IMG/VR virus record: IMGVR_UViG_3300044990_001033
Coordinates: 1-24,811 of that record
Strand: one strand, 5' to 3'
Length of the DNA: 24,811 nt
Origin: a virus
The stretch's first letter is position 1; the number at the start of each line of letters is the position of its first letter. Both the position numbers and the translations under genes were made by a program. Below are positions 2,172 to 23,312 of the stretch, piece after piece. Under the pieces are notes generated by a model. The model saw only the letters and a list, made by a program, of their open reading frames with translations, was not told where the DNA came from and searched no databases.

Positions 2172-2359
2172 AGCGCACCGACGCCTTGGTGGTCATCCGT
2201 GTTGCCGGGTATCACTCCGACATGCGGACGTTCACCCGCACCTATACCGAAAACCGGGTCAGCCATGCCGCCGCCTGGGCTGAGTACCAGCGCGGCTCCA
2301 AGATGCGCGAGGCTGGCGTTCCGTGTTCCTGCCCTACTTGCAACCGAAAGGAAAATTGA
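2168..2359 (+). CDS. Small hypothetical protein with C-terminal CxCPxC motif (63 aa)
   Basis: The ATG at 2168 is inside an ATGA overlap and preceded by GGAAGAAG. The protein is basic and ends with PCSCPTCNRKEN, a half zinc-ribbon that may pair in a dimer or with a partner. Its stop overlaps the next ATG at 2359 as TGATG. No recognised family. Confidence 0.65.
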   Translation: MKRTDALVVIRVAGYHSDMRTFTRTYTENRVSHAAAWAEYQRGSKMREAGVPCSCPTCNRKEN

Positions 2360-2541
2360 TGCCGCACGTATCGAATCAGGTCTGGATTTATGTTGCCGCC
2401 GATGGTGTGCCGGAGGTGTTGCGCTTGCTCGCCGATGCGATCCTTGAATACAAGCGCCCTGCCGATCATTGGCTGCATGAGTTTGATGATGGGGTCGTCA
2501 CGATCACGTTGGATGCAAACGAGGGCGTTTATATCGCCTAG
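2359..2541 (+). CDS. Small hypothetical protein, 3' end replaced by an inserted cassette (60 aa)
   Basis: The start ATG at 2359 overlaps the previous TGA and follows AAAGGAAAA. The present stop (TAG, 2539-2541) lies inside the attC of the methyltransferase cassette that begins at 2535. If bases 2535-3579 are removed, the frame runs on without shift into 3580-3619 (tail IAGCCVSYSKGGV) and ends in ATGA with the gene at 3616, restoring the operon's usual overlap. The native protein was therefore probably about 72 residues. Function unknown; no motif recognised. Confidence 0.7.
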   Translation: MPHVSNQVWIYVAADGVPEVLRLLADAILEYKRPADHWLHEFDDGVVTITLDANEGVYIA

Positions 2542-2595
2542 CTAACCGGCTGGCGCGGGTTTATCGCGCCAGTCCGTGTTGAGCGACGTGTTAGC
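2535..2595 (-). other. attC site of the solitary methyltransferase cassette
   Basis: Read on the minus strand: outer box GCTAAC, 5-base spacer ACGTC, L'' GCTCAACACGG, stem CTGGCGCG, loop, CGCGCCAG, L' CCGGTTAGC, 5-base spacer TAGGC, then G. L'' pairs completely with L' if one C and one A are left extrahelical in L'' (GCT[C]AAC[A]CGG), the polarity mark of attC sites. This fixes its orientation as leftward. The 8-bp hairpin could be mistaken for a terminator but has no T tract. Confidence 0.8.
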
Positions 2596-2644
2596 AGTTT
2601 TTTGAAAAGTCGGCGCTGGCGGGACGGCGCAGGAAAGGAAGAAA

Positions 2645-3619
2645 GTGAATGAGTTGGCTTTATTCGCGGGCGCTGGTGGCGGAATACTTGGCGGGCACTT
2701 GCTCGGGTGGCGCACAGTCTGCGCTGTTGAGCGCGAACCCTATGCCGCAAGCGTTCTTGCCCAGCGACAGAATGACGGCTTTCTCCCGGCCTTCCCGATT
2801 TGGGATGACGTTTGCACCTTCGACGGACAGCCTTGGCGCGGGGTTGTTGACGTGGTTTCTGGGGGCTTTCCGTGCCAGGACATTTCAGCCGCAGGCAAAG
2901 GAGCAGGAATCGACGGCGAACGCTCCGGCCTATGGGGCCAGATGGCGCGAATTATCGGTGAGGTACGACCGCGATTCGTCTTCGTGGAGAACTCACCGCT
3001 CCTTGTGGGACGAGGACTTGTCCGCGTGCTCGCTGACCTTGCCGAAATGGGGTTCGATGCGCAATGGGGTGTTGTCGGAGCTTCTGACGTTGGAGCGCCC
3101 CACCGCCGAGAACGATGCTGGATTGTGGCCCACGCCGAACGTGCCGAACGGCGGCCGGAGTTGCGCGCATGTGACGGACTGGCGCGGAACGGACGGGCGG
3201 ACGGCCTACCACAAGGGCAAGAAGGTGCAGGTGGGACTGGAACATGCGGCGAAGTACTGGCCGACGCCGACGGTATGCGGGAACCACAACCGGAAAGGGT
3301 TGAGCAAGAGCAGCGGGGACGGGCTTTCGACGGCGGTGAAGACGTGGCCGACGCCAACAGTGAACGACAGCAAGAACTGCACGCTGCCACCCTCGCAAGT
3401 GAAGCACGACAACATCCCTGGGGCATTGTTGAGGGATGGCGAGAAGGCTGGTGGGGCGTTGAACCCGATGTGGGTCGAGTGGCTGATGGGGTGGCCGCTC
3501 GGGTGGACAGACTTAAAGCCATTGGCAACGGACAGGTGCCGCAATGTGCAGCAGAGGCATGGCGGCTGATGACTGCTAACGCTGGCTGCTGCGTCAGTTA
3601 TTCCAAGGGGGGTGTATGA
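2645..3619 (+). CDS. DNA (cytosine-5) methyltransferase
   Basis: Transfers a methyl group from S-adenosylmethionine to cytosine C5 in a specific DNA sequence, in phages usually to evade host restriction. Motifs in order: FAGAGGG (7-13, SAM binding), GGFPCQDIS with catalytic Cys77, VEN (114-116), GAPHRRER (150-157), a variable target-recognition stretch, and AIGNGQVP near the C-terminus. It is 324 residues, normal length. The start is GTG at 2645, because ATG 2649 is in another frame; GGAAAGGAAGAAA precedes it. The last 13 codons (after 3580) lie outside the cassette and come from the interrupted phage gene. A second intact frame overlaps almost all of it. Target sequence unknown. Confidence 0.9.
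   Translation: MNELALFAGAGGGILGGHLLGWRTVCAVEREPYAASVLAQRQNDGFLPAFPIWDDVCTFDGQPWRGVVDVVSGGFPCQDISAAGKGAGIDGERSGLWGQMARIIGEVRPRFVFVENSPLLVGRGLVRVLADLAEMGFDAQWGVVGASDVGAPHRRERCWIVAHAERAERRPELRACDGLARNGRADGLPQGQEGAGGTGTCGEVLADADGMREPQPERVEQEQRGRAFDGGEDVADANSERQQELHAATLASEARQHPWGIVEGWREGWWGVEPDVGRVADGVAARVDRLKAIGNGQVPQCAAEAWRLMTANAGCCVSYSKGGV
2649..3569 (+). CDS. Overlapping-frame phage protein (MSWLYSRAL... / MGWPLGWTDL family), 306 aa
   Basis: A complete 306-residue frame in +1 register inside the methyltransferase gene, starting at ATG 2649, four bases after the GTG, so both starts share one ribosome site. It begins MSWLYSRALVAEYL, contains three WPTPT/WPTPN repeats and ends with NPMWVEWLMGWPLGWTDLKPL. 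I recognise these blocks from phage proteins of unknown function often found with C5 methyltransferases. The same bases give VADAN or AHAER in the methyltransferase frame and WPTPT in this one, so both readings show conserved-looking motifs. Either it is a true dual-coding gene or one frame is decaying; I favour the former. Confidence 0.65.
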   Translation: MSWLYSRALVAEYLAGTCSGGAQSALLSANPMPQAFLPSDRMTAFSRPSRFGMTFAPSTDSLGAGLLTWFLGAFRARTFQPQAKEQESTANAPAYGARWRELSVRYDRDSSSWRTHRSLWDEDLSACSLTLPKWGSMRNGVLSELLTLERPTAENDAGLWPTPNVPNGGRSCAHVTDWRGTDGRTAYHKGKKVQVGLEHAAKYWPTPTVCGNHNRKGLSKSSGDGLSTAVKTWPTPTVNDSKNCTLPPSQVKHDNIPGALLRDGEKAGGALNPMWVEWLMGWPLGWTDLKPLATDRCRNVQQRHGG

Positions 3620-3981
3620 GCCGCGCCGTGATGCAACTGGCGCTTGATGCGCTGGAAGATGACTTTACGCTAGTCACCCAAGGTGCCAAGGTAATCGCCG
3701 CGCTCAAAGCCGAACTGGCAAAGCCTGAGCCTGAGGCCGCGCTCACTAGGTTTTACGCCTGCGAAGGCGACAAGGAAGATTCGCCTTTAGAGCGCCTGCG
3801 CTTTTTCTGTTCGTTGTCTATGAACGGACAGGACTGGCTTGATTCAGAACAGTTCTTCGATGCGCTGGCAACGCCTGAGCCGGTTGCCTGGATCAATGCG
3901 CGGGGTGACTACTGCGAAGTCTCAAGACCTGACACGGTGTATGGCTCGCACACGATTCCGCTATACCGCAAGGAGGCATGA
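3616..3981 (+). CDS. Phage accessory protein with C-terminal PVAW...IPLYRKEA block (121 aa)
   Basis: ATG at 3616 overlaps the upstream TGA (ATGA) and follows AAGGGGGG. The C-terminal part EPVAWINARGDYCEVS...YGSHTIPLYRKEA matches a short beta-rich tail found on many small phage proteins of unknown function; the N-terminal half is helical (ALDALEDDFTLVTQGAKVIAALKAEL). It sits directly after the methyltransferase cassette and was next to the gene at 2359 before insertion. Function unknown. Confidence 0.75.
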   Translation: MSRAVMQLALDALEDDFTLVTQGAKVIAALKAELAKPEPEAALTRFYACEGDKEDSPLERLRFFCSLSMNGQDWLDSEQFFDALATPEPVAWINARGDYCEVSRPDTVYGSHTIPLYRKEA

Positions 3982-4268
3982 TGGACATCGCCGACCGCAT
4001 TGCCGACATTCTGGTCGAGGACCACGTTGCCCTGCTCGCTGAACATGCCGCGCTCCGGCGTGATGCCGAGCGGTTCCGCTGGCTGGCTGCCGCGTTGCAG
4101 GATGCTTATGACGGCTGCCCTGCCGACCTGCAAAAGATGTCCGTCTGCTGCCACATGCAGTTCGGGCGTGGTTCGTTTCGCCGGGTAGAGGCGACGGTCA
4201 CGTGGTCCGATGTTCGGGACGAACCGCTTGCCCTGGGTGACGCCATCGATGTTGAAATGGGCTTGTGA
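3978..4268 (+). CDS. Phage protein with LRRDAERFRWL helix (96 aa)
   Basis: Starts at ATG 3978 (ATG 3981 is an equally possible start; GCAAGGAGG lies just upstream). The helix ALLAEHAALRRDAERFRWLAAALQD is a signature of a common small phage protein family of unknown role. It is the last gene of the rightward operon; the 78 bases to the convergent gene at 4347 show no convincing T-tailed hairpin. Confidence 0.75.
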   Translation: MMDIADRIADILVEDHVALLAEHAALRRDAERFRWLAAALQDAYDGCPADLQKMSVCCHMQFGRGSFRRVEATVTWSDVRDEPLALGDAIDVEMGL

Positions 4269-4346
4269 TGGTGCGCCTTTAAGCCGTTTCCAGCCGGCAG
4301 GGAAATCCCAACCCAGGATTGCTCCCGGCCGCGCTCGCCGTTTGTC

Positions 4347-4598
4347 TCAACCGACCCAATATTGATCGTCCACCGCGCTTAATGCGTCGTCTTTGGCCTG
4401 TCGCAGCGTGTCTATGTGGCATGCCATCCCCAGGCAGAGCGCCACCAAATCCTCGAAGTGAACATCTACCCCGTGCACGTAATCGTTGACGCTGGCGAAA
4501 CTGTAATCGGCCGGCATGGTGATGCCTTCCTGCGTCTCGGTTAGCACGGTTCCGGCCTGGTCGATGGTGTAGGTTGTCCGGTTATCGCTCATGTTCAT
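4347..4598 (-). CDS. Hypothetical protein (83 aa), last gene of the leftward early operon
   Basis: Start ATG at 4598 or 4592 (MSDNRTTYTID...), overlapping the 3' end of the small gene at 4582-4722. The sequence is acidic and mixed alpha/beta (FEDLVALCLGMACHIDTL). No family recognised. It is the promoter-distal end of the long leftward operon. Confidence 0.65.
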   Translation of the reverse strand: MNMSDNRTTYTIDQAGTVLTETQEGITMPADYSFASVNDYVHGVDVHFEDLVALCLGMACHIDTLRQAKDDALSAVDDQYWVG

Positions 4599-4722
4599 CT
4601 GTTCCTGGTTCGTAGGCGTACCAGCGGCATATTTTCACCGCTGGCTGTTGCAGGATGCGGCAGACCAGCACGCCGTCGATTGTCCGGCTCGCTTCGCAGG
4701 AGCGGCATGTGAACTGGTTCAT
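4582..4722 (-). CDS. 46-residue cysteine-rich micro-protein
   Basis: The frame MNQFTCRSCEASRTIDGVLV... starts in an ATGA overlap with the upstream gene (4719-4722) and ends inside the next gene, filling what would otherwise be an unexplained 120-base gap in a gapless operon. It has CRSC plus two further cysteines, consistent with one small zinc site. No homolog recognised. Confidence 0.55.
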   Translation of the reverse strand: MNQFTCRSCEASRTIDGVLVCRILQQPAVKICRWYAYEPGTDEHER

Positions 4723-4907
4723 GCGACCCGCCATCCCTTTTTCGGCAGCGTGAAGAATGCCATGCGCGCCAGCTTGGTCTTTGGCTTGTGCGTCCTGCCC
4801 ATGCTCAACCGTCCGTTGCAGACGACCGCGAAATTGCCGTTGTTCTTGGGTCCGCTTCTGGCGAACAGGCGCGGCTTGCTCGCCAGTAGGTCGTTGATCG
4901 TTGTCAT
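4719..4907 (-). CDS. Small basic hypothetical protein (62 aa)
   Basis: Starts ATG 4907 inside an overlap with the upstream stop (4904) and ends in ATGA with the 46-residue gene. The product is strongly basic (SKPRLFARSGPKNNGNFAVV, RTHKPKTK) and could bind nucleic acid, but there is no recognisable fold. Confidence 0.6.
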   Translation of the reverse strand: MTTINDLLASKPRLFARSGPKNNGNFAVVCNGRLSMGRTHKPKTKLARMAFFTLPKKGWRVA

Positions 4908-5428
4908 AGTCGGTCCCCTTGTGCCCGTCTCAGCGCGTCGTAATCGACCCCGCTGCCGCGCCGATATACCAGATGCCCTGCAATCGATAGGACTTCCGCG
5001 CCGCCTTTATGGCGCGATTGATTGACCGCGCCGTAGTGTTCCCCCAGCAGCGCACGCAGCCGTTCCCGCCGTTCTCGGCAGGTTTTTGTCGGGTGTGGCA
5101 GCGGGGGGTGCGGCTTGTCTCGCTTACCGTCTGCCATTGCGAAAAGGCGTGAGTAAGCACCTGGGCTGCCCTCGCGCGGCTTGCGCCATCCGGCGATGCG
5201 GATAATGCCGGCTTCGTGCAACTGTCCGAGGTATTTCGCCACGCCGTTGCGATCCGCGTGCACCTTCTCCGCCAAATCGATGGCATCGATCGGCTTCGTG
5301 TGCACTTCCATGTGAGTGATGATGCGCATCACGGTTGGTGCCATTGTTTGGCGCAGCCGTTTATCGATCAGCCATCCGGTTTTACGGTCCAGGAATAATC
5401 CTGTGGACGTTGTTTCATCACGCTTCAT
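4904..5428 (-). CDS. Probable winged-helix DNA-binding protein (174 aa)
   Basis: The start is ATG 5428 (MKRDETTSTG), with a strong GGGAGGGAG ribosome site; an upstream TTG would lie inside that site. Residues about 30-90 (VMRIITHMEVHTKPIDAIDLAEKVHADRNGVAKYLGQLHEAGIIRI) read as a winged helix: helix, recognition helix, beta wing. The C-terminal part is basic. Possible roles are replication initiation or transcription control in the early operon; which one is not visible. It overlaps the zinc-ribbon gene upstream by 11 bases. Confidence 0.65.
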   Translation of the reverse strand: MKRDETTSTGLFLDRKTGWLIDKRLRQTMAPTVMRIITHMEVHTKPIDAIDLAEKVHADRNGVAKYLGQLHEAGIIRIAGWRKPREGSPGAYSRLFAMADGKRDKPHPPLPHPTKTCRERRERLRALLGEHYGAVNQSRHKGGAEVLSIAGHLVYRRGSGVDYDALRRAQGDRL

Positions 5429-6007: not shown

Positions 6008-6648
6008 GATGCGCTCCTGATCTGGTCTTTTCGCGTCACTTGGCTGCTGGCCTGTCCGGTCTTGCGGATGAAGATTTCGACCCTGGGCTGGTCGCTGAAT
6101 CGCTTATCCACGATGACCCGTTTCACCTGGCAATCGTCCAGCCAAGCCACCCCGTTGAGGGCATCCTTCGCCGCCTTGCCGATGTTGTCCGCGTCGGGTC
6201 GGCTGGTGTGCGCGATCTGTGCGTTCAGGGCTGCCTGGCGTTTCCAGTCCGGCCAGCTTTGCGCTGGTGCGAAGTAGGCGATGACCTCGACCTTGAGCGG
6301 TCCTTGCAGGGGCGGCTCTCCGCCCATCGCTGCCCTGGCCTGGTCCTTCGCGTCGGCTTCCCACTTCCGTGTTTTCTCCGGCGTGTGGTTGCCATTGGTT
6401 TTTCTCCCAAGTGTTTGGCGATGGGCGTACATGCTGGATACGATGCCGAACGGGCCGCCAGCCAGAAAGGCGGCGACCTCGCTCGGGCTTGCTCCGGGCA
6501 TGAGGCGATAGAGAGCCAGGTGGCCAGCGCCAATGGCGAAACTGGTCAGAAAGGCGGATTTGTAGTGGCCCTGGTTGACGTTCTGGCTTTGGAAGCCAAG
6601 GGCAAACACCGAGACGTAGACGCTGGCGAATAGGAGTAGCTCGGTCAT
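6004..6648 (-). CDS. RusA-type Holliday junction resolvase with an N-terminal membrane-like extension
   Basis: Residues about 85-195 form a RusA domain: TPEKTRKWE, then [17 protein letters not shown] and WLDDCQV, giving the acidic catalytic set D152, D154 and D171. RusA enzymes cut Holliday junctions during phage recombination and replication. Residues 1-78 ([43 protein letters not shown]) are hydrophobic and look like a separate small phage membrane protein. The usual first RusA strand with its KGRPR segment is eroded to LGRKTNGNH. This looks like an in-frame fusion of two neighbouring phage genes. It overlaps the intI stop by four bases, so the two are translationally coupled. Confidence 0.75.
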
Positions 6649-7661
6649 GAGGAGATCCGATCCAGCGGGCTCGCCACCCCACGCCCACCGCGATTAAGCA
6701 CGTGGGTATAGATCATCGTCGTCTTCACATCCGAGTGGCCAAGCAGCTCCTGCACCGTCCGGATGTCGTAATTCATTTCGAGTAGATGTGTGGCGAACGA
6801 GTGGCGCAAACAGTGCGGATGCACCGGCTTCGCAATGCCCGCCGCGAACGCCGCCGCCTTCACCGCCCGCTGAATATTCCGCTCGCCCCAATGATGCCGG
6901 CGAACCGCCCCGGAACGCGGATCGCGCGAGTAGGTCGGCGCGGCGAAAACATACTGCCACGCCCACTCCATCGGTGCCTTCGGATACTTCCGCCTCAACG
7001 CATCCGGCAACTCCACATCCGCGTGCCCGGAAGCTAGGTCGACGTCATGCCAACGGCGCCGAGCGACCAGATGTTCCCGCAACGGCTGCACCAACTTCGA
7101 CGGCAACATCGTCACCCGATCCTTACCCCCTTTGCCGTCCCGGATCGTTACCGATAACGAAGCCAGATCCAGATCTTTCACCCGCAGCCGCAGGCACTCC
7201 AGCAGCCGCATCCCGGTCCCATACAGCAGCTGCACGATCAGCCCATTCGTATCCGGCTTCAAATGCCGGATAAGTGAAGCTGCCTCAGCCTGGGTTAACA
7301 CCGTCGGCAAATGCTTGCTCGGCTTCGCCCGGGTGATGTTGTCCAGCCAAGGCAAGTCCACGTCCAGGACGTCGCGGTACAAAAACAGCAAGGCCGCCAG
7401 CGCCTGATTCTGAGTGCTCGCCGCCACGGTTCTCTCTGTCGCCAAGTGAGACAAGAACGACTCGATCTCGGGCGCCCCCATATCCTTCGGATGGCGTTTC
7501 CCATGGAAGAAGATGAACCGCTTCACCCAGTGGATATAGGCCTGCTCGGTGCGTAAGGCGTAATGCTTGGTTCTGAGCAAGGCACGGATTTGCGCCAGCA
7601 AACGCGGCGGTTGTTGAACGACAGGCGTTGCTGTCGTGTTGTGACTGTCAGTAACTAGCAT
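6645..7661 (-). CDS. intI: Integron integrase (tyrosine recombinase)
   Basis: Catalyses attI x attC and attC x attC recombination. The tyrosine-recombinase set is complete: R152 (GTGMRLLEC), K177/K180 (GKGGKDR), H283 and R286 ([14 protein letters not shown]), H309 (LLGHSD) and nucleophile Y318 (MIYTHVL). The IntI-specific insertion is present at about 214-260: [20 protein letters not shown], then [11 protein letters not shown], which distinguishes it from XerC/D and phage integrases. At 338 residues it is typical length. ATG 7661 has a strong AGGAGG seven bases upstream. It lies 30 bases after the preceding cassette gene and overlaps the resolvase gene by four bases, so it is co-transcribed with the phage early operon rather than driven by a visible promoter of its own. 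Confidence 0.95.
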
Positions 7662-7728
7662 TGCCGTGCCTCCTGACGTTATTGAGGTGGTTTAGGCGAC
7701 ATCAGGTGTCGTCGAATTTAAGTTGGCC
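7662..7728 (+). other. attI site (primary cassette insertion site)
   Basis: Between intI and the first cassette, ending in the core G|TTGGCC at 7722-7728, whose continuation complements the outer box of the first attC (7722-7732 against 8016-8026, 10 of 11). It contains a small inverted repeat CGACA-N5-TGTCG (7697-7711) that could be an integrase binding site. It also carries the intI ribosome site and the last ten codons and stop of whichever leftward gene reads in, currently the gene at 7692-8003. Exact left limit is a guess. Confidence 0.7.
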
Positions 7729-8003
7729 GACAAAACCGCTGCCTCGCCATCAAAGTACCCGATCATATATGCCTCTCCCTCTTCTTCGGTCGTGTTGCAA
7801 TCTGGCGGCACCACTCCGGCAAGCATGTGCTTGATCATCTCTTTCGCCTGGTTGGCCGTAAGCAGGTTCGTCCCAATCGGCCAGTGAGGACTGTCATGCT
7901 CGTGAACAGACCGGAACGAAATCCCGGCATCTGGGTGGAAATCTTTCGGCAGTTTCCATCCCAGGAACTGGTCCACCATTTGGTCAATCATCGTCTTCGC
8001 CAT
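7692..8003 (-). CDS. Cassette 1 gene: phage protein with WPIGTNLLTANQAKEM motif (103 aa)
   Basis: The start ATG 8003 (MAKTMIDQMVDQFLGWKLPK) follows AGAAAGG; the longer frame would begin inside attC. The core DAGISFRSV...SPHWPIGTNLLTANQAKEMIKHML is a block I recognise from small phage proteins of unknown function. Codons beyond 7722 (L-N-S-T-T-P-D-V-A-stop) are not cassette sequence but attI, so the protein has a tail supplied by the integron platform. It is antisense to its own attC and lies 30 bases before intI. Confidence 0.75.
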   Translation of the reverse strand: MAKTMIDQMVDQFLGWKLPKDFHPDAGISFRSVHEHDSPHWPIGTNLLTANQAKEMIKHMLAGVVPPDCNTTEEEGEAYMIGYFDGEAAVLSANLNSTTPDVA

Positions 8004-8019
8004 CTCATACCTTTCTGCC

Positions 8020-8087
8020 GGCCAACCCGGCATTGGAGAGGGATGCTTCGCCTGTCGGCTCCGCACCCCTAAATTTTTCGGTTAGCC
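8020..8087 (+). other. attC 1
   Basis: Outer box GGCCAAC (8020-8026), L'' ATTGGAGAGGG, a GC stem, L' CCCCTAAAT, core GTTAGCC (8081-8087). L'' pairs with L' (one mismatch) when G and A are left extrahelical in L'', which gives rightward polarity. It fills the gap between the cassette 1 gene's ribosome site and cassette 2. Confidence 0.75.
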
Positions 8088-8119
8088 GTCACCAGACCGA
8101 ACCAATGACGGCGCCCAAA

Positions 8120-8482
8120 TTAAACCGTGTGCGTACCTTCGACGCCGCGCCGCATGCGCTCGATGGTGCGCTGTTGCAGCCAGTGCTGCGCCTCTTCCAA
8201 GTGCGTCAATGCGCATGCGTTCGCCTTGCAGGCATACGGCCCGGCCTGAAACCCGCGCAGGCGGTCACACAGCACCGCAAGCAGCGCCTCATGCGTAATG
8301 CCATTCACGCCGTTGCCGTCCGCATTGATCGGGCCGTTCTGAAAGCGAAGATGCGTCGGCACCGCTTCGCCGCCTTCAATGTCGTAGGCGTGGTTCGCGT
8401 TGCCGTGGCCCGGCTCGTCCAGCACGGTAATCGTCAGCGTGTCGTTGCCGGGGTTGATCTTGTGTTCGTTCAAAGTGCGCAT
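8120..8482 (-). CDS. Cassette 2 gene: Acb2/Tad1-like helical hairpin protein (candidate anti-defence sponge)
   Basis: The 120-residue product begins MRTLNEHKINPGNDTLTI and contains LRFQNGPI, then two long helices: about 63-80 (THEALLAVLCDRLRGFQ) and about 84-112 (ACKANACALTHLEEAQHWLQ...). The second helix with its ALTxLEEAxxW pattern resembles the hairpin of phage Acb2/Tad1 proteins, known to sequester cyclic nucleotides or cADPR-type signals and so block CBASS or Thoeris. That resemblance is from memory and covers only the hairpin; the beta-rich N-terminal part is different. ATG 8482 follows AAGGA. The gene lies fully inside cassette 2 and is antisense to attC 2. Confidence 0.6.
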   Translation of the reverse strand: MRTLNEHKINPGNDTLTITVLDEPGHGNANHAYDIEGGEAVPTHLRFQNGPINADGNGVNGITHEALLAVLCDRLRGFQAGPYACKANACALTHLEEAQHWLQQRTIERMRRGVEGTHTV

Positions 8483-8522
8483 CTGTCAGTCCTTATAAAA
8501 CCGTGGCTTCATCGGGCGTCAC

Positions 8523-8580
8523 GGCTAACCCGTCAATCAACTCGGACGGCTTTCAGCCGCCGGTTATTTCTGCGTTAGCG
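8523..8580 (+). other. attC 2
   Basis: Outer box GGCTAAC (8523-8529), spacer CCGTC, L'' AATCAACTCGG, small stem ACGGCT/AGCCG, L' CCGGTTATT, spacer TCTGC, core GTTAGCG (8574-8580). L'' pairs perfectly with L' once C and T are extrahelical. The wider box at 8518-8529 complements the cassette 2 start at 8081-8092 in 11 of 12 positions. Confidence 0.85.
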
Positions 8581-8766
8581 CCCAATTTCGCGCACTCGCT
8601 CAATGATCTCGGTCAGATCGTCAAGCTGCTTCTTCGCTTTGTGTTCCCGGAGTACTTTGCTGGTACTGGCCCCATCGCCCATGTTGCCTAGCGAAATCAC
8701 GTCCCATGCCATTGCGAACGGCAGTTTCAAGGCGGTTTCGGTGGTGCGCTTCAGTAGTCTGAACAT
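8575..8766 (-). CDS. Cassette 3 gene: small amphipathic phage-type protein (63 aa)
   Basis: ATG 8766 (MFRLLKRTTETALKLPFAMA) is preceded by GAAAGGAAGAAG. The first 30 residues are amphipathic or weakly hydrophobic (ALKLPFAMAWDVISLGNMG), followed by a charged helix (KAKKQLDDLTEIIERVREIG), a scheme seen in small phage proteins that associate with membranes or filaments; no function is known to me. The TAA stop is formed by the first bases of the cassette (TTA at 8575-8577), inside the attC 2 core. Confidence 0.7.
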   Translation of the reverse strand: MFRLLKRTTETALKLPFAMAWDVISLGNMGDGASTSKVLREHKAKKQLDDLTEIIERVREIGR

Positions 8767-8789
8767 TCTTCTTCCTTTCGTAGTCCGGG

Positions 8790-8858
8790 CGCTAACCCGG
8801 CGTTCAACGCGGACCTTCGCAAGCTGCGCTTGCTCGGCCCGTTAACTCTGCGTTCGGC
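8790..8858 (+). other. attC 3
   Basis: Outer box CGCTAAC (8790-8796), spacer CCGGC, L'' GTTCAACGCGG, GC-rich stem, L' CCCGTTAAC, spacer TCTGC, core GTTCGGC (8852-8858). GTT[C]AACG against CGTTAAC shows the extrahelical C in L''. Bases 8787-8796 complement the cassette 3 start (8574-8583) in 10 of 10 positions. Confidence 0.88.
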
Positions 8859-8860
8859 CT

Positions 8861-9154
8861 CTACAGCACCGCCACCACAGTCTTGTCGGCCGGCAGCATC
8901 GCAACGATCTCGGCAAAGCTTGGCGCCGTTGCCTTGCCTTGCAACTCGGCCAACAGCCCGCCGCGGTTCAGCCCAAACTCGTGTGTCCATACAGGCCGCC
9001 CCAGGGCTTCTTCCACGGCCTTTTGGAACTCGTAGAACGGCATGCAAAGACAGTCTTGCTCCATCTGGAATAGTGCGCGGGTCTTGGCGTCCCACTTCTG
9101 CCAAGCATTGCTGTCGTGAAAGGCAATCGCCTGCTCTTTGGTCAGTTGTTCCAT
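8861..9154 (-). CDS. Cassette 4 gene: small phage protein with LGRPVWTHEF motif (97 aa)
   Basis: The start ATG 9154 (MEQLTKEQAIAFHDSNAW) has GAAAGGAAAACGAA in front; the longer frame would run through attC 4. The segment EFQKAVEEALGRPVWTHEFGL recalls small phage proteins carrying a 'lGRPV.THE' block; the rest is helical. Function unknown. The TAG stop lies within the first ten bases of cassette 4. Antisense to attC 4, co-directional with the phage operon. Confidence 0.75.
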   Translation of the reverse strand: MEQLTKEQAIAFHDSNAWQKWDAKTRALFQMEQDCLCMPFYEFQKAVEEALGRPVWTHEFGLNRGGLLAELQGKATAPSFAEIVAMLPADKTVVAVL

Positions 9155-9183
9155 TTCGTTTTCCTTTCGCTTCGGCACCAGAG

Positions 9184-9286
9184 GCCGAACAATTCGCTCA
9201 GCCCGGAAAACCAACGGCGGGCCACAGCGGTTCATTTTTGGCGGCCGTGCCCGCCGTTGGTTTCCGGCTAGCTCGGGCCGTTGTGC
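9184..9286 (+). other. attC 4, with long imperfect hairpin
   Basis: Outer box GCCGAAC (9184-9190), spacer AATTC, L'' GCTCAGCCCGG, a stem of about 19 bp (GGAAAACCAACGGCGGGC against GCCCGCCGTTGGTTTCC), L' CCGGCTAGC, core GTTGTGC (9280-9286). GCT[C]AGCC against GGCTAGC gives rightward polarity. AGAGGCCGAAC at 9180-9190 is the exact complement of the cassette 4 start at 8852-8862 (11 of 11). Confidence 0.88.
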
Positions 9287-9287
9287 G

Positions 9288-10100
9288 TCAAACCTCGAAC
9301 GCCTGCGCCTGGGCGAAGCTCACGCGAAAGCCTGCCGCGTTGCGATGCCCGCCGCCCCCGTACTGCTTCGCTACTTCGGCCACGTCTGCGCCGTCGTCGC
9401 TCGAACGTAGGCTGAATACCCGACCTTCCGGCGTGTCCCAGTAGCAGGCCGCGAACGGACGCCCCTTCGCCAGTTCGTGTCCGGCGTCGCTGCTCATCGT
9501 GTAGGGCAGGTTCGCCACCGGCACGCGGTGGCCGCCGATCACCATGTCCCGCGTCGTCACTCCGAGCAGTTCCCGAATGTCCTTGAAGTGCTTGCGCTCG
9601 ATGGCCTCGCCTTCGGCCGCCAGCTCATCCGGCGCGGTCGCCATCAGCATGTCCCACACTTGGAAGTCGTAGGGGAACGAAAAGACGTTGGCTTGAATCT
9701 GCCGCGTGTTCTGGAGCGCGAAGCGCCAGAGGTCGCGGTCCTCGATGTGCAGCAACAGCGGCGGCGGTTCCTGGCCTGGGAAGAAGTGTTCCCACGTCAT
9801 CATTGCGCCGCTGTGGCCCATGTCGAACTTCGCCGTCACGTTCGCCGGCAGGTCGACCAAGTTCTCAACTGCCGTCTTGTGATGGTCGAGAATCAAGATG
9901 CTGTTCGCCTTCTCGGCCATTTCCAGCAGCACCGGGCGCTTGTAGCTGAAATCCACCATCACTACGTCCTTGCCCGTCACGTCGGGCGGCGGCTCTTGGT
10001 ACTTGCCGGGGTGGAAGTCAATCTCGCCGAGCGCCTTGCGAACAACCCAGGCGGCCCCAAAGCCGTCGGCACAGTTTCCGTGGTAGATGCACATGCTCAT
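9288..10100 (-). CDS. Cassette 5 gene: DHH/DHHA1-family phosphoesterase
   Basis: The 270-residue protein has the DHH-superfamily metal motifs: YHGNCADGFGAAW (H7, D12), MVDFS (D50), LDHHKT (D72-H73-H74), IEDRDLW (D121) and the C-terminal DHHA1 substrate loop YGGGGHRNAAGF (248-258). The family comprises Mn-dependent exopolyphosphatases and phosphodiesterases that cut short oligoribonucleotides (NrnA type) or cyclic dinucleotides. In a phage setting it could degrade defence second messengers or recycle nanoRNA; the sequence does not decide. ATG 10100 follows AAAGGACATACAA. It is the largest array cassette gene and is antisense to attC 5. Confidence 0.88.
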   Translation of the reverse strand: MSMCIYHGNCADGFGAAWVVRKALGEIDFHPGKYQEPPPDVTGKDVVMVDFSYKRPVLLEMAEKANSILILDHHKTAVENLVDLPANVTAKFDMGHSGAMMTWEHFFPGQEPPPLLLHIEDRDLWRFALQNTRQIQANVFSFPYDFQVWDMLMATAPDELAAEGEAIERKHFKDIRELLGVTTRDMVIGGHRVPVANLPYTMSSDAGHELAKGRPFAACYWDTPEGRVFSLRSSDDGADVAEVAKQYGGGGHRNAAGFRVSFAQAQAFEV

Positions 10101-10133
10101 TTGTATGTCCTTTCTTCGTAGTTACCGTTTGCC

Positions 10134-10203
10134 GCACAACCCGTCGGTCGAGATGGACCGTGCGCAAGAAGCCGCGCCCGGCCCCTCACCTTTTGCGTTA
10201 GAA
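10134..10203 (+). other. attC 5
   Basis: Outer box GCACAAC (10134-10140), spacer CCGTC, L'' GGTCGAGATGG, stem region, L' CCCCTCACC, core GTTAGAA (10197-10203). GGT[C]GAG against CTCACC shows the extrahelical C in the left arm. CGCACAAC complements the cassette 5 start GTTGTGCG (9280-9287) in 8 of 8 positions. Confidence 0.82.
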
Positions 10204-10467
10204 CTCACAATCAACCTTCATTCCAAGCGATTGTCGTAATCCGCACTTCGGACAAACGTACTCGCCGCGCACAATCTGCACACTGGCCCTTGCCTGCCAC
10301 GCTTTCCATGCTTGGTGTGCAGCTATCAACTTATAGCTTTCGCCACTTCGATCGATACTCCTGCACTCTCGGTTCCCGCCAGAAAACCAGACCTCGAACG
10401 CCAACCGCTCTAACTCGGCGTTCGAGGTCGCCGCTTCGCGGCTGGACTCGTCATTCGCTTCGCTCAT
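10198..10467 (-). CDS. Cassette 6 gene: phage-type protein with C-terminal zinc knuckle (89 aa)
   Basis: Starts ATG 10467 in an ATGA overlap with the preceding gene, preceded by GAGGGGTGAGG. The middle part LAFEVWFSGGNRECRSIDRSG...YKLIAAHQAWKAWQAR is a block common in small phage accessory proteins, and the end has CPKCG. Its first about 20 codons are encoded by attC 6 itself, so the recombination site doubles as coding sequence. The TAA stop overlaps the attC 5 core. Function unknown. Confidence 0.75.
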   Translation of the reverse strand: MSEANDESSREAATSNAELERLAFEVWFSGGNRECRSIDRSGESYKLIAAHQAWKAWQARASVQIVRGEYVCPKCGLRQSLGMKVDCEF

Positions 10468-10494
10468 TCCTCACCCCTCAACTCTGCGTTAGCA
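10408..10494 (+). other. attC 6 (last attC of the array)
   Basis: Outer box CTCTAAC (10408-10414), spacer TCGGC, L'' GTTCGAGG, a 45-base variable stem, L' CCTCAAC, spacer TCTGC, core GTTAGCA (10488-10494). GTT[C]GAGG against CCTCAAC fixes polarity. The complement to the cassette 6 start (10197-10205) is 7 of 9. It lies within the coding regions of two leftward genes: the start of the 10198-10467 gene and the end of the 10464-10667 gene. Confidence 0.82.
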
Positions 10495-16554: not shown

Positions 16555-16731
16555 ATGCCGACCCAGCAGGATCTGCATCACCAGGCGGAGCGTTGCAGGC
16601 GTATGCAATCGCGTGATGATCAGCGGCAGGCGGCGAAGTTATTGTTCGCCATGCTGCTGGAGTCGTTTCAGGCCAAGCTGCCGGAGCGGGATAGTAAGCG
16701 CTGGATTCAGGCTCAGGCGACAGGCCAATGA
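16555..16731 (+). CDS. Small basic helical protein before the primase (58 aa)
   Basis: ATG 16555 (MPTQQDLHHQAERCRRMQSR) starts two bases after the cII-like stop, with GGGGAGCGG upstream, and its TGA overlaps the primase ATG (16728-16731). Charged, helical, no cysteines beyond one; no family recognised. The longer frame extending upstream through the frameshifted gene is not a fusion but an accident of register. Confidence 0.6.
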   Translation: MPTQQDLHHQAERCRRMQSRDDQRQAAKLLFAMLLESFQAKLPERDSKRWIQAQATGQ

Positions 16732-19175
16732 TCAAGCTGCCATTCAAGCGCGTCAACGACGCGGCCCTGGCGTGCCTGGTGAGCCTGCTCTCGGAGTGGT
16801 TGCCCGACGGCAAGCTGGATGGCTATGAGTTCAAGGCGCTGAATCCACGCCGCGCAGACGGGCACAAGGGATCGTTTTCGATCAACACCACGAACGGGGT
16901 CTGGGCGGATTTCGCCACGGATGACAAGGGATCGGACCCGATCAGCTTGTATGCCTATATCTTCACCTCGGGCGACCAGGGCCAGGCTTGCCGTGAATTG
17001 GCGGATCGGTTCGGGATCGATGTTCCGGGCGGCGCCGAAAGAAAGTCGCCACGGGCCGCCGTTCAGCGAAACCCGCCGCCGGTCGAGATCAAACCGGCGA
17101 AACCGCGCACGCCCTGGACGCCGGCCGGCCCGGCACCGGCGGATGCGCCCGAGCCGCCGAAGGCGCACGTCAAGCGCGGCCTGCCAGAACGGGTGTGGAC
17201 TTACCTCGATTCCGCTGGCCAGGTGCTGGGCTATGTCTACCGCTTCCGCACCAGCGATGGCGGCAAGGAGGTGCTGCCCCTGGTGTGGGCCCGTAACGAG
17301 GCGAGCGGCAAGACCGAATGGCATTGGATGACCTGGGCCGAGCCTCGGCCGCTGTATGGCCTGGACAGGCTGGCGGCCAGGCCCGATGCGACCGTGCTAC
17401 TGGTGGAGGGTGAGAAGTGCGCCGACGTGGGCTCGGCCGAGCTGCCGGACCTGGTGGTGGTGTCCTGGCCGGGCGGCGGCAAAGCGGTGGCCAAGATCGA
17501 TTGGGCGCCGCTGCATGGCCGCAAGGTGATTCTGTGGCCGGACTGCGATGCTCAGCGGGTGCCGTTGACGCGGGAGGAGAAGGACGCCGGGATGGCGCCG
17601 GAGGCCAAGCCCTTGCTCGATGCCCAGGACCAGCCGGGCGTGAAGGCCATGGACCGGATTGAGGCGGTGCTGGAGGGCAAGGCAAAGCTCTGGCGGGTCT
17701 CGATCCCGGCGCCGGGTGAAAAGCCCTCGGGCTGGGATATCGCCGATGCCGTCGACGAGGGCCTGCGCGGCGAGGCGTTGGCGGGGTTTATTCGCGCCAA
17801 TAGTCTCGCGCTCGCGCCAGCGGTCGCGGGGTCGGTCGGTCCTGCAAGCACTTCGACGCAACGACCGGCTGGCGCGGCCGACGCCATCGAAGGCCCGAAA
17901 ACCCCGGGCTGGATGGACGGGATGGTCTGGAAAGAGCGCGGCAAGCTCGAGGACTGTCGCGAGAACGTTTTTTTGCTGCTGACCCAGCACCCGGCCTGGG
18001 CCGGGGTGATTGCCTGGGACGATTTCGCCCGGCGCTGCGTCAAGCGCAAGCCGACGCCATGGGGCTCGCCGGCGGGGGAGTGGACGTCGGAAGACGATTT
18101 CGAGCTGGGCCTGTGGATGGCCCAGCGCTGCCGTCTGCTGGTGAAGGGCGAGGGCACTATCACCAATGGCGTGGCCATGACTGCCGCCCGTAACAAGTTT
18201 CATCCGGTGCGCGAGCACCTGGAGGGCCTGCAGGCCTGGGACGGTATCCCGCGACTGGATCATTGGCTGGTTGATTGCCTGGGGGCGAAGGCGGGCAGCA
18301 ACGATTATCTGCGCATCGCCGGCCGGCTGTTCTTCCTGGGGCTGGTGGCGCGGGTGATGTGCCCCGGCATCAAGTGGGATTACATGCTGGTGCTGGAGGG
18401 TCCGCAGGGTAAGGGCAAGTCAACGGCGCTGCGCATCATCGGCGCCGACTGGTTCGCCGATACGCCGCTGCGCCTGGGCGACAAGGACGCCTACATGGCC
18501 CTGGACGGCGTCTGGCTGTATGAGGTCGGCGAGATGGATTCATTCAACCGCGCCGAGACCACGGCGGTGAAGGCGTTCGTGACGACCCAGACGGACCATT
18601 ATCGCGAGCCGTATGCCCGGCGCACCATCGATCGCGCGCGCCAAGTAGCCTTCGCCGGCACCACCAACCAGGGCGAGTATTTCAAGGACACCACGGGCAA
18701 CCGCCGGTTTTTTCCGGTGCGACTGGTGGGCACGCTGGACCTGGACAAGCTGGCTGAGTGGCGCGACCAGTTGCTGGCCGAGGCGCTGGCGGTGTTCCGG
18801 TCCGGGGCGCGGCTGTATCCGACCCGCGAGGAGGAGGCGCTCTATATCCGTCCGGAGCAGGAAGAGCGCGAGATCGTCGATCCGTGGATCTACAAGCTCC
18901 AGGACTACCTGGCCGAGCCGGAACAGCAGTTCACCAATGAGTACACATCGCTCGATCTACTGGTCGGCGCCATTGGCGTGGAGGTGGAGAAGATCGATAA
19001 CAACCGGGGCGCGGCGACGCGGCTCGGTAACCTGATGGCGAAGCTGGGTTGGCGCAAGGATCGCCGCTCGACTGGCCGTCGGGAGTGGGTCTATGTGCGC
19101 CCATGGGCCGTAGAGTCGGCGCCCGCGCCAGCAGTCAGTCACGGGGCAGGGGGGGGCAACGGTGCGCCTTTCTGA
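16728..19175 (+). CDS. Phage primase-helicase: Toprim plus VapE-type AAA domain (815 aa)
   Basis: Synthesises primers and unwinds DNA at the phage origin. N-terminal CHC2-like primase core about 1-100 (FKALNPRRADGHKGSFSINT, GVWADFATDDKGSDPISLYA), Pro-rich linker about 100-150, Toprim region with LLVEGEKCAD (224-233) and WPDCDA (270-275), then a VapE-type helicase: LQAWDGIPRLDHWL (501-514), Walker A LEGPQGKGKST (556-566), Walker B-like WLYEVGEMD (596-604) and AGTTNQGEYFKDTTGNRRFF (643-662). A C-terminal winged-helix-like region about 715-790 ends the protein. Start ATG 16728 overlaps the upstream stop. The candidate origin lies immediately downstream. Confidence 0.85.
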   Translation: MIKLPFKRVNDAALACLVSLLSEWLPDGKLDGYEFKALNPRRADGHKGSFSINTTNGVWADFATDDKGSDPISLYAYIFTSGDQGQACRELADRFGIDVPGGAERKSPRAAVQRNPPPVEIKPAKPRTPWTPAGPAPADAPEPPKAHVKRGLPERVWTYLDSAGQVLGYVYRFRTSDGGKEVLPLVWARNEASGKTEWHWMTWAEPRPLYGLDRLAARPDATVLLVEGEKCADVGSAELPDLVVVSWPGGGKAVAKIDWAPLHGRKVILWPDCDAQRVPLTREEKDAGMAPEAKPLLDAQDQPGVKAMDRIEAVLEGKAKLWRVSIPAPGEKPSGWDIADAVDEGLRGEALAGFIRANSLALAPAVAGSVGPASTSTQRPAGAADAIEGPKTPGWMDGMVWKERGKLEDCRENVFLLLTQHPAWAGVIAWDDFARRCVKRKPTPWGSPAGEWTSEDDFELGLWMAQRCRLLVKGEGTITNGVAMTAARNKFHPVREHLEGLQAWDGIPRLDHWLVDCLGAKAGSNDYLRIAGRLFFLGLVARVMCPGIKWDYMLVLEGPQGKGKSTALRIIGADWFADTPLRLGDKDAYMALDGVWLYEVGEMDSFNRAETTAVKAFVTTQTDHYREPYARRTIDRARQVAFAGTTNQGEYFKDTTGNRRFFPVRLVGTLDLDKLAEWRDQLLAEALAVFRSGARLYPTREEEALYIRPEQEEREIVDPWIYKLQDYLAEPEQQFTNEYTSLDLLVGAIGVEVEKIDNNRGAATRLGNLMAKLGWRKDRRSTGRREWVYVRPWAVESAPAPAVSHGAGGGNGAPF

Positions 19176-20688: not shown

Positions 20689-21216
20689 ATGGTTGACCTG
20701 ATGGCCAGGTGTAAGCAAGCGGAATTCGGTGAACTGGTTGGGGTCAGCCAGCAAGCCATTTCGGACCTGTTCTCCAGGCGCGTGCTCTCCGAGGATGGCA
20801 CGGCGGGGCAATGGCTCCGTGAGTACTGCGGGCACCTACGCGAGATGGCCGCCGGCCGGGCTGCCGCCGGCGACCTGGATCTTGCAACCGAACGGGCGAT
20901 GCTGGCCCGATCCCAGCGCCATGGCCAGGACATCAAGAACAACGTGGCCATGGGCACCTACGCTCCTATCGATCTGCTGTCCGATGTGCTGGCCAATGCC
21001 GCCCAGGCGGTGGTAGACCGGCTGGAGCAGATCCCGGCTGACCTGCGCCGAGTATGTCCCGACCTTCCGCAGGCGGCGCGTGACGCGGTGATGGCCGAGA
21101 TCGCCTCGGCCCGAAACGAGATGGCGCGCAAGACCGCCTCCCTGGTTGCCGATGCCCTGGACCCCACGGACCTGCAGGAAGATGATGAGCCGACGGTCGA
21201 GGAGGTCGACGCTTGA
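20689..21216 (+). CDS. Terminase small subunit (lambda Nu1-like)
   Basis: The start ATG 20689 follows AAGGGGG. The N-terminus is a winged-helix DNA-binding region (KQAEFGELVGVSQQAISDLF, then SRRVLSEDGTAGQWLREYCG) as in Nu1-type subunits, followed by a long helical stretch (LDLATERAMLARSQRHGQDI) typical of the family and an acidic C-terminus that contacts the large subunit. 175 residues, close to the lambda protein's length. It recognises the packaging site and recruits the large subunit; its stop overlaps the large-subunit start. Confidence 0.82.
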   Translation: MVDLMARCKQAEFGELVGVSQQAISDLFSRRVLSEDGTAGQWLREYCGHLREMAAGRAAAGDLDLATERAMLARSQRHGQDIKNNVAMGTYAPIDLLSDVLANAAQAVVDRLEQIPADLRRVCPDLPQAARDAVMAEIASARNEMARKTASLVADALDPTDLQEDDEPTVEEVDA

Positions 21217-23312
21217 TCCCGCATACCCTCCCGATCGCTACGCGCGCCGCCGTCGTCCGCGCCGTCCGCGCCGGACTGGCACCGCTGCGCGCCGATCCGC
21301 CCATGCCCCTGTCCACCTGGGCTGAGCAGCACTTCGAGATGGATGAAGAATCCAGCCACCGCCGGGGCCTGTGGGCGGCCTGGCCGATCCAGATCGGCTG
21401 GATGGACGCATTCAGCAACGACGATATCTTCGAGGTCGACGTCGAGAAGGCCAAGCGGGTCGGCTACACCAAGAGCGTGGTGGCCTTCGCCGAATACAAC
21501 GCCAGCCATCGGCGCCGGAAGCTGGCCATCTGGCAGCCGACCGACGATGACCGGGACTCATTCGTCAAGAGCGAGGTCGCGCCCGCTTTCGACATCTGCA
21601 AGGCCTTGGCGGCAGTACGACGTCACGATCGTGACGCCAACACCGTCCGCTTCGTGCGCTTCCGCGGCAGCGTCCAGCACTACCTGGGCGCCAAGGCCGC
21701 GCGGAATTTCCGCCGAATCACGGTGGCCGTCTCGGTCCTGGACGAGGTCGACGCCATGGATACCGTGGTGGAAAAGACCATCGATCCCTACACCGGCGCC
21801 GTCGGCCGCTTGGAGGGGGCCCCGTTTCCGAAAGTGGTCCTGGGCACCACGCCCAGGCACAAGCTCACCAGCCACATCCGCCGGCGCGTGGACGCCGCCG
21901 AAGCGGTCATGGAATACCTTATCCCTTGCCCGCACTGCGGCCATCGCCATGCCCTTGGCTACGGCCGTCTGCGCGACGAGGCCGACGAAACCGGAATGCA
22001 GTGGGAGGAGGACGAGCCTCTGGCCACCGTTAGGCACGTCTGCCCGCACTGCCGCCAGTCCATCACGCAGGCCGACTACCTGGCCGTGTGGGAAGACGGC
22101 CGCTGGATCAGCCGCTGCGGACAGTACCACTACGACCACGTGGCCAAGGTTTGGCAGGACGGCGAAGGCATGCCCAGGCCGGCGCCGCGCCACGTCGCCT
22201 TCGTGCGCGCCTGGACCGCCTACAGCCCCCAGCGCGCCTGGCCTGACATCCTGCGCGAGTTCCTCGAGGCCAGAAAGGCCAAGAAGGCCGGCGACAACGG
22301 CCCCATGCAGGGCTTCGTCAACGAGACCTTGGCCGAGGTCTGGGAAGAGGAGTACGAACACACCGACGCCAGCGTCCTGGTCAAGCGCGCCCAGACCGAC
22401 CTCGACATTCCTCTGCATGTAGTCCCGTCCGGCGCCTGCAAGCTGTTGATGTTCGTCGACACCCAGGCCGACCGCTGGGAAGCCGTCACCTGGGCCATCG
22501 GCCGTGGCGAAGAGATGTGGCCTATCGACTACCGCGTCATCTACGGCACCCCCGCCGACCAGGCCGAATGGGCCGACAAGCTCGACCCCCTGATCCGCAC
22601 CGTATACCGCCACACCCACGGCCACGAAATGACCCTCGACGCCATCGGCATCGACACCGGCGGCACCAACTGGACCCACCAGGCCTACAACTACTGCCGG
22701 CTGCGGGCCCACCAGAAGGTCTACGCCTGCAAGGGCGACCCCGCCCTGGGCAAGCCCATCAAAATGAAGCCAAGCCAGGTTGACGTGAACGCCTACGGGC
22801 GCGTCATCAAGCACGGCGTCAAGCTCTGGCGGATCTGCGTCGACACCGCCAAGGACCTGCTCCATGGCCGCCTGGAACAGGTCAAGCGTCCAGGCCCCGG
22901 CTACATCCACCTCAACCGCCACTTGCCCCAGGAGTTCTACGACCAGCTCACCGCCGAGCACCGCATCCGGGTCCGCCAGGCCCACGGCTGGGCCGAGCGC
23001 TGGGTCTGCCCCAGCGGCCACCGAAACGAGGTGCTTGACTGCACGGTCGGGTGCCTGTTCCTGATCCAGGTGCTCGGCCTGCACAACACACCGGCCAGCG
23101 TCTGGGAGCGCTGGGAAGCCAACCTCACCCCAGACCTGTTTGCCACACCGCCTGAAACAACAGCGCCAGAAAGCGAAACAACAGCCCAAGAAAGCGAAAC
23201 GCAGACCCATGAAACCGTGCCTACGTCTGCACCGAGCGCACCCGTGCCATTGCCACCGCGCCGATCACCAAGCCTGTCCCGCCGCACCGGCGGCGTTTCG
23301 CGCCGGACCTGA
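21213..23312 (+). CDS. Terminase large subunit (lambda gpA family)
   Basis: ATP-driven packaging motor and cos nuclease. Motifs: variant Walker A KAKRVGYTKS (79-88, as in lambda KSARVGYSK), Walker B SVLDEVDAMD, a C-motif-like VVLGTTPRHK, paired CPHC zinc-type motifs, and a nuclease domain with FVDTQADRWEAVTWAIGRGE and DAIGIDTGG. 699 residues. The start is TTG 21213, overlapping the small-subunit stop, with GAGGAGG eight bases upstream; ATG 21303 would remove the region that binds the small subunit. The last 50 residues are Pro/Glu/Thr-rich repeats (ESETTAQESETQTHE), a likely disordered tail. Confidence 0.92.
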   Translation: MIPHTLPIATRAAVVRAVRAGLAPLRADPPMPLSTWAEQHFEMDEESSHRRGLWAAWPIQIGWMDAFSNDDIFEVDVEKAKRVGYTKSVVAFAEYNASHRRRKLAIWQPTDDDRDSFVKSEVAPAFDICKALAAVRRHDRDANTVRFVRFRGSVQHYLGAKAARNFRRITVAVSVLDEVDAMDTVVEKTIDPYTGAVGRLEGAPFPKVVLGTTPRHKLTSHIRRRVDAAEAVMEYLIPCPHCGHRHALGYGRLRDEADETGMQWEEDEPLATVRHVCPHCRQSITQADYLAVWEDGRWISRCGQYHYDHVAKVWQDGEGMPRPAPRHVAFVRAWTAYSPQRAWPDILREFLEARKAKKAGDNGPMQGFVNETLAEVWEEEYEHTDASVLVKRAQTDLDIPLHVVPSGACKLLMFVDTQADRWEAVTWAIGRGEEMWPIDYRVIYGTPADQAEWADKLDPLIRTVYRHTHGHEMTLDAIGIDTGGTNWTHQAYNYCRLRAHQKVYACKGDPALGKPIKMKPSQVDVNAYGRVIKHGVKLWRICVDTAKDLLHGRLEQVKRPGPGYIHLNRHLPQEFYDQLTAEHRIRVRQAHGWAERWVCPSGHRNEVLDCTVGCLFLIQVLGLHNTPASVWERWEANLTPDLFATPPETTAPESETTAQESETQTHETVPTSAPSAPVPLPPRRSPSLSRRTGGVSRRT

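Follow-up and report, generated by a model that had tools for sequence, protein, structure and literature searches.

The cassette and its neighbourhood

The DNA analysed here, hereafter the window, is the 24.8-kb IMG/VR virus record IMGVR_UViG_3300044990_001033 (24,811 nucleotides). It encodes a primase/helicase (16728-19175), a terminase large subunit (21213-23312) and a portal protein (from 24183). An Rfam scan of the window gave no matches. The phage carries an integron with six attC sites; a seventh attC stands alone about 4 kb from the integron, in a rightward operon of the left arm. Two other records were used to delimit the features around this site: L008 (IMGVR_UViG_3300044984_003323) and L023 (IMGVR_UViG_3300046004_001812), the latter being another phage. 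A vertical bar marks a crossover point.

2359..2541, plus strand: host phage gene, broken by the unit close to its 3' end; the L008 homolog is whole
2529..2535, minus strand: left junction, the attC end G (2535) followed by host ATATAA (2534-2529); core GAT
2535..3579, minus strand: solitary integron gene cassette, 1045 bp (L023 array copy, L008 empty site, attC model)
2535..2596, minus strand (model match 2529-2596): solitary attC, with R'' TGCTAAC at 2590-2596 and ending ...TAGGCG at 2535
2645..3619, plus strand: C5-cytosine DNA methyltransferase ORF; the cassette part reaches 3579, and the host tail supplies its final codons and stop
3574..3580, minus strand: right junction, host G (3580) and then the cassette start TTAGCA (3579-3574)
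3580..3619, plus strand: detached 3' part of the host gene, which now supplies the C-terminal tail of the methyltransferase (L008 comparison)
3616..3981, plus strand: next gene of the same rightward operon, with ATGA overlap; homologs in other phages
6645..7661, minus strand: intI, integron integrase of the window phage (TIGR02249; phage clade of the tree)
7697..7724, plus strand: attI (CGACATCAGGTGTCGTCGAATTTAAG|TT), crossover 7722|7723 (near-identical phages; clade motif)
7723..10488, plus strand: array of six cassettes, with genes on the minus strand
8020-8087, 8523-8580, 8790-8858, 9184-9286, 10134-10203 and 10408-10494: attC sites of the array (covariance model)

Read on the minus strand, the cassette begins at 3579 and ends at 2535, and the layout is host ...GCCAGCG|TTAGCAGTC...(methyltransferase gene, antisense)...TGCTAACACGTCGCTCAACACGGACTGGCGCGATAAACCCGCGCCAGCCGGTTAGCTAGGCG|ATATAAACGCC...host. 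The coordinates 2535-3579 given in the initial annotation, which had been made from the window alone, proved exact. The complementary unit ends described there pair at 9 of 9 positions (GTTAGCAGT and ACTGCTAAC), a count that includes the host-supplied G.

A covariance model built from eleven attC sites of the window phage and two related phages scored the solitary attC at 61.6 bits (E 6e-16). The six array sites scored 47-64 bits, consistent with the earlier view that all seven have the same build, and the best window match outside these sites reached 10.4 bits (E 0.64). The solitary attC was one training row of the model; nevertheless, its architecture matches that of the other sites. It has R''/R' and L''/L' pairing with extrahelical bases, its R' half being replaced by host G|ATATAA and thus necessarily host-derived. 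Moreover, the specificity of the model is independent of this training row, because its matches in 84 virus intI loci numbered almost 190 on the intI-canonical strand and one on the opposite strand. The attC pairs covary when compared with shuffled and slid controls, and the bottom-strand fold of the solitary attC has a z of -3.9. We also considered GTTAGC at 2541-2546 (minus strand) as the R' box, which would place the unit end at 2546|2545. This end was rejected: it leaves the TAG stop behind, and the L023 attC continues to TAGGCG|. The GTTAGC sequence is the L' side of attC, and the R' half was lost at 2535|2534.

The cassette gene product belongs to Pfam PF00145 (E 2.7e-30) and contains the catalytic GGFPCQ and VENSP motifs and the C-terminal conserved motif; the dcm profile TIGR00675 fell below its cut-off. 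There is no restriction enzyme partner in the unit. The ORF has no stop inside the unit and reads across the junction into the host tail (...MTANAGCCVSYSKGGV*), ending at 3619, where its TGA overlaps the ATG of the gene at 3616. As the methyltransferase lacks a stop of its own, the inserted gene takes over the ATGA overlap of the gene that it broke. A matching frame at the junction would arise by chance one time in three, so it may be fortuitous. In L023 the methyltransferase stops in the sequence of its neighbour (...MTANAADKGRA*).

The +1 frame of the methyltransferase gene contains a second full-length ORF (2649-3569, plus strand, ATG at 2649, 306 aa, ...WVEWLMGWPLGWTDLKPL...), and a PHROG 1008 match falls on this frame. 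In 80 of 80 methyltransferase homologs, down to about 46% protein identity, the +1 frame stays open for more than 90% of the gene length; the +2 frame is open in none of the 80. The methyltransferase and its +1 frame look like a conserved, fully overlapping gene pair. Homologs of the methyltransferase lie between attC sites in L024, L042 and L088 and directly against attI in L026; the methyltransferase is thus a recurring cargo of cassettes in viral contigs.

Array copy, empty site and crossover

L023 contains the 1045-bp unit with one mismatch in 1045 (G/A at 3408). Here the unit is the middle cassette of a three-cassette intI-attI array next to the intI of L023 itself, sitting between two other cassettes with exact ends at the G|TT crossover, as a movable unit does. 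The L023 attC is followed by TTATGC, giving the canonical core G|TTATGC where the window has G|ATATAA, in agreement with the earlier observation that the far junction in the window is not a core box. The array copy thus identifies the unit as a cassette with these exact ends and assigns the left GCG to the cassette attC rather than to a target duplication. A duplication had to be considered because GCG flanks the unit at either end in the window, which is what a transposon-like or homing insertion of the methyltransferase gene with a 3-bp target duplication would leave. However, one of these GCG copies is host sequence and the other belongs to attC; in L023, GGCG is part of the cassette attC and is followed by the canonical core, which rules out the duplication. 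Profile searches found no transposase or nuclease in the unit, and we regard this type of insertion as having a negligible chance of being correct. An exact search of viral contigs for the solitary attC returned, beyond the window, only the L023 contig; near-identical records may be hidden from it. L023 provided the only array copy of this unit, and the filled site was seen in the window alone.

Removal of 2535-3579 from the window yields a host gene reading MPHVSN...GVYIAGCCVSYSKGGV (MPHVSN...DANEGVYIAGCCVSYSKGGV) and restores the ATGA overlap. The initial annotation had proposed that this deletion rejoins gene 2359 in frame to 3580-3619 and had advised looking for a relative with the empty site. 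L008 is such a relative. Its host gene is uninterrupted and ends ...GVYIAGCCVSYSKGDA (full reading MPHVSN...DANEGVYIAGCCVSYSKGDA), as predicted for the restored ORF. Across the joint, 196 of 206 nt are identical between L008 and the restored window, and the L008 ATATAA directly adjoins the opposite host flank. L008 lacks gene 3616 and is therefore not an otherwise identical genome. Homologs of gene 2359 that naturally end at VYIA were looked for and none was found. A tblastn search of the phages collection with the restored host protein gave no match, and a pattern search for further empty sites returned only the L008 contig.

The target site is CAGCGATATAA (minus-strand CAGCG|ATATAA). It contains neither attI nor attC and is uninterrupted in L008, which are the features of a secondary site. 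The junction G|ATATAA has the GNT/GWT core, and the target fits the IntI secondary-site core G|AT; such a core is weak evidence by itself, because GWT occurs 1377 times on the two strands of the window. As orphan attI copies exist in relatives, we also sought one at the solitary site. None was present, the clade attI motif occurring once in the window, at 7697-7724.

The comparison involves one empty-site relative and one array-copy relative, each a metagenomic contig, and a window that is an IMG/VR record. With metagenomic and virus-catalogue records and a near-exact cassette copy in another contig, reads of the L023 cassette could have been misjoined to an insert-free phage during assembly. 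Such a chimera would require two false junctions, each exactly at a recombination point of the cassette, and the approximately 3 bases (CGC) that host and cassette share at the junctions are far too few for an assembler overlap. In addition, the window cassette differs from that of L023 by one base. We consider a chimera highly improbable. At the level of sequence, the three records establish the identity of the cassette, its exact ends, its array form, the empty site and the type of junction.

From these data we conclude, with a probability of about 0.95 for the explanation as a whole, that the window contains a mobile cassette with an orphan C5-cytosine methyltransferase that was inserted by an integrase at a secondary site in a phage operon gene. 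An integron integrase would have recombined the folded bottom strand of attC with the secondary (attG-type) site in the small gene of the rightward operon. A single crossover after G would then give host G|TTAGC...cassette...GGCG|ATATAA without target duplication. The host protein is shortened from 71 to 60 aa by a TAG stop inside attC; insertion would thus have removed its last 11 residues, with the methyltransferase acquiring the last codons and the overlap with the next gene. As noted initially, the methyltransferase gene is antisense to attC and co-directional with the host operon. It is probably transcribed from this phage operon, and the enzyme probably methylates phage DNA against host restriction.

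We infer that the phage-encoded IntI was the acting enzyme and that the array of this phage was the source. The initial annotation had proposed that cassettes apparently moved out of the array to distant sites of one genome. The insertion does lie far from the array, but this cassette is missing from the window array and was found in array form only in L023, so the source may be an earlier window array, another phage or a host integron. The same two facts would fit insertion by a different integron integrase, from the host cell or from a co-infecting phage, and L023 indeed has its own IntI (78% identical to the window IntI at the protein level). This actor is unlikely, though it deserves to be kept in mind: the window phage itself encodes an intact IntI from the lineage in question, and its array differs by turnover among near-identical relatives, which makes an outside enzyme unnecessary. 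The window IntI scored 465.9 bits against the IntI-specific profile TIGR02249 (cut-off 265). Near-identical phages match the window up to the attI G|TT and then differ in their cassettes. Left of the array, 1319 bp of L004 match the window without a difference, and to its right 9566 bp match with 3 mismatches; the two arrays (2766 bp in the window, 373 bp in L004) are exchanged exactly at the attI G|TT and the terminal G|TTAGCAGG. L005 has a third first cassette at the same attI G|TT. Judged by this natural variation among near-identical relatives, the integron appears to be active in this phage group.

Insertion could also have happened in another phage, the filled site then being inherited whole by homologous recombination. 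These phages are mosaic: L002 and L005 are 100% identical to the window only down to 4868, and L003 and L004 change at 6390. The breaks lie next to the integron and look like ordinary phage mosaicism. A single mismatch in 1045 relative to L023 suggests recent movement of the cassette, which speaks against inheritance of this kind. We judge it slightly less probable still than an outside integrase, and it would alter the place of the event and not its nature.

Several other array contents were observed. The product of window 8120-8482 (minus strand) resembles the Acb2/Tad1 hairpin domain, at a score below the cut-off (E 5e-4); Acb2 and Tad1 are nucleotide sponges against CBASS and Thoeris. Window 9288-10100 (minus strand) encodes a DHH phosphoesterase (PHROG 4771), and both array genes are possible counter-defence cargo. 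By eye, we noticed a reverse-transcriptase-like ORF at the far array end of L006 (approximately 5000-5290) and, in L265 (the contig of L115), an array cassette at 3265-4980 in which a methyltransferase is apparently interrupted by an HNH-type ORF. Part of the L265 array also has a gene oriented in the attC sense.

A second solitary cassette lies upstream of a homolog of gene 3616 in L009 (IMGVR_UViG_3300044984_002597). Its attC (5191-5246, minus strand) scored 36.5 bits with the covariance model, and its junctions are G|ATAGGT at attC and G|TTAGAAGG at the far end. The cargo is an N6/N4 methyltransferase (PF01555, E 4e-6) that is antisense to attC; its ORF continues past the junction into the host tail and has an ATGA overlap there. 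A search for its empty site returned L009 itself only, so this locus is a candidate parallel. The cargo is co-directional in both the window and L009, in line with the proposal that cassettes spread in the orientation that gives expression; that this orientation is selected cannot be demonstrated from two events. L010 and L011 contain a single cassette close to a gene of the 3616 family, in their case with a canonical core. Off-array attC matches in L112, L115 and L172 were set aside, being at contig ends and resembling arrays that span the end of a circular genome. A match at 9288 in L134 (25 bits) was taken as noise.

A probable lineage of phage integrons

An IntI profile search provided 80 virus loci, kept from 228 confirmed IMG/VR intI loci, and 80 bacterial loci. 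In a tree made by a quick method, 59 of the 69 viral rows grouped with 2 rows from bacterial MAGs (59/61 viral, SH-aLRT 99), and the window IntI falls in this nearly all-viral clade. L182, one of the two MAG rows, has a phage-type integrase adjacent. Terminase genes of two families were present in 17 of the 39 records tested, many records being short fragments. Nearly thirty loci of the clade have the attI motif CGACA-N4-TGTCG...GAATTTAAG|TT with small variations; no bacterial locus outside the clade has it.

The genes of the window array are antisense to attC, whereas those of a canonical integron are mostly in the attC sense, and they are co-directional with intI and the leftward operon. Antisense and sense cassette genes numbered 96 and 17 in the clade compared to 37 and 97 outside it (Fisher p 2e-20, with loci that are non-independent). 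By locus majority the ratios were 32:1 and 2:23, respectively. In held-out tests run without start-site signals, the orientation caller gave the right answer in 249 of 318 cases. The contrast is probably understated rather than exaggerated, because many 'sense' calls in the clade are weak ORFs without an antisense candidate. We conclude that the antisense build is general in this phage integron lineage.

Orphan attI copies with cassettes of their own were found at three loci:

L131 11226-11253, minus strand: adjoins a phage tyrosine integrase
L182 9615-9642, minus strand: adjoins a phage tyrosine integrase
L264 3199-3226, minus strand: between terminase and head genes

L130 probably holds one likewise. 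By their positions, these copies may be extra cassette landing platforms in other operons. We lean, with some reserve, towards the view that these are phage-specific integrons with their own IntI clade and attI, whose antisense cassettes would be expressed from phage operons without an attI promoter and could also reach additional attI copies and secondary sites. If so, viruses would have in them a means of swapping methyltransferase genes and others that probably serve in counter-defence, with cargo delivered to more than one phage operon.

Relation to known systems

In class 1 and chromosomal integrons, cassette genes lie mostly in the attC sense and the promoter is at attI. The window integron shares with class 1 and sedentary chromosomal integrons the IntI family (TIGR02249), the attC architecture and cassette exchange at attI, but its genes are antisense to attC and share the direction of intI and the phage operon. 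The cassette methyltransferase has the same motifs as phage orphan C5-cytosine methyltransferases (PF00145), again with no restriction partner in the unit; it differs from them in being packaged as an integron cassette.

Phage integrons, and cassette insertion away from canonical sites, are each already known separately. According to the accessible portions of Qi et al. 2023 (PMC9892861), phage genomes carry integrons and CALINs, methyltransferase cassettes included, and phage attC sites work with IntI1. These integrons share intI, attI, attC and cassettes with the window; as far as that text extends, they are few and, where traced, pieces of bacterial integrons, and a phage-specific IntI clade, antisense arrays, orphan attI copies or a secondary-site cassette are not described in it. 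Phage integrons have thus far been viewed as occasional captures of bacterial ones. Taken together, the nearly all-viral IntI clade, its own attI, the antisense arrays and the orphan attI copies point to a distinct phage mode of operating integrons, and the pattern raises a directly testable question, namely cassette expression without an attI promoter. We found no description of phage-specific or antisense integrons, or of a fully documented natural phage case, in a literature search whose scope excluded preprints and most subscription papers; for that reason, priority is not established.

IntI acts at secondary sites with a GNT core and can cut in GAT (PMC10127599), and cassettes insert at non-classical attG sites, according to work cited in PMC12901181. 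Insertions of this kind were reported by Recchia 1994, Francia 1993 and Loot et al. 2024, as cited in the portions available of PMC12901181 and PMC10127599. To the extent that these sources describe them, the known cases share with the window an attC-borne cassette, a target without canonical attI or attC, a single crossover at a G|WT-type core and an attC kept beside the insert. Off-target insertion has so far been studied mainly in laboratory and bacterial systems. For the window insertion, source, unfilled target and product can each be read to the base in natural phage DNA, which shows that a cassette can exit the array system and settle as a regular gene of a phage operon, the overlap with the downstream gene being intact. 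The cases covered in those sources come from the laboratory or from bacterial genomes, whereas the window case lies in a phage operon and has both a natural empty site and an array copy.
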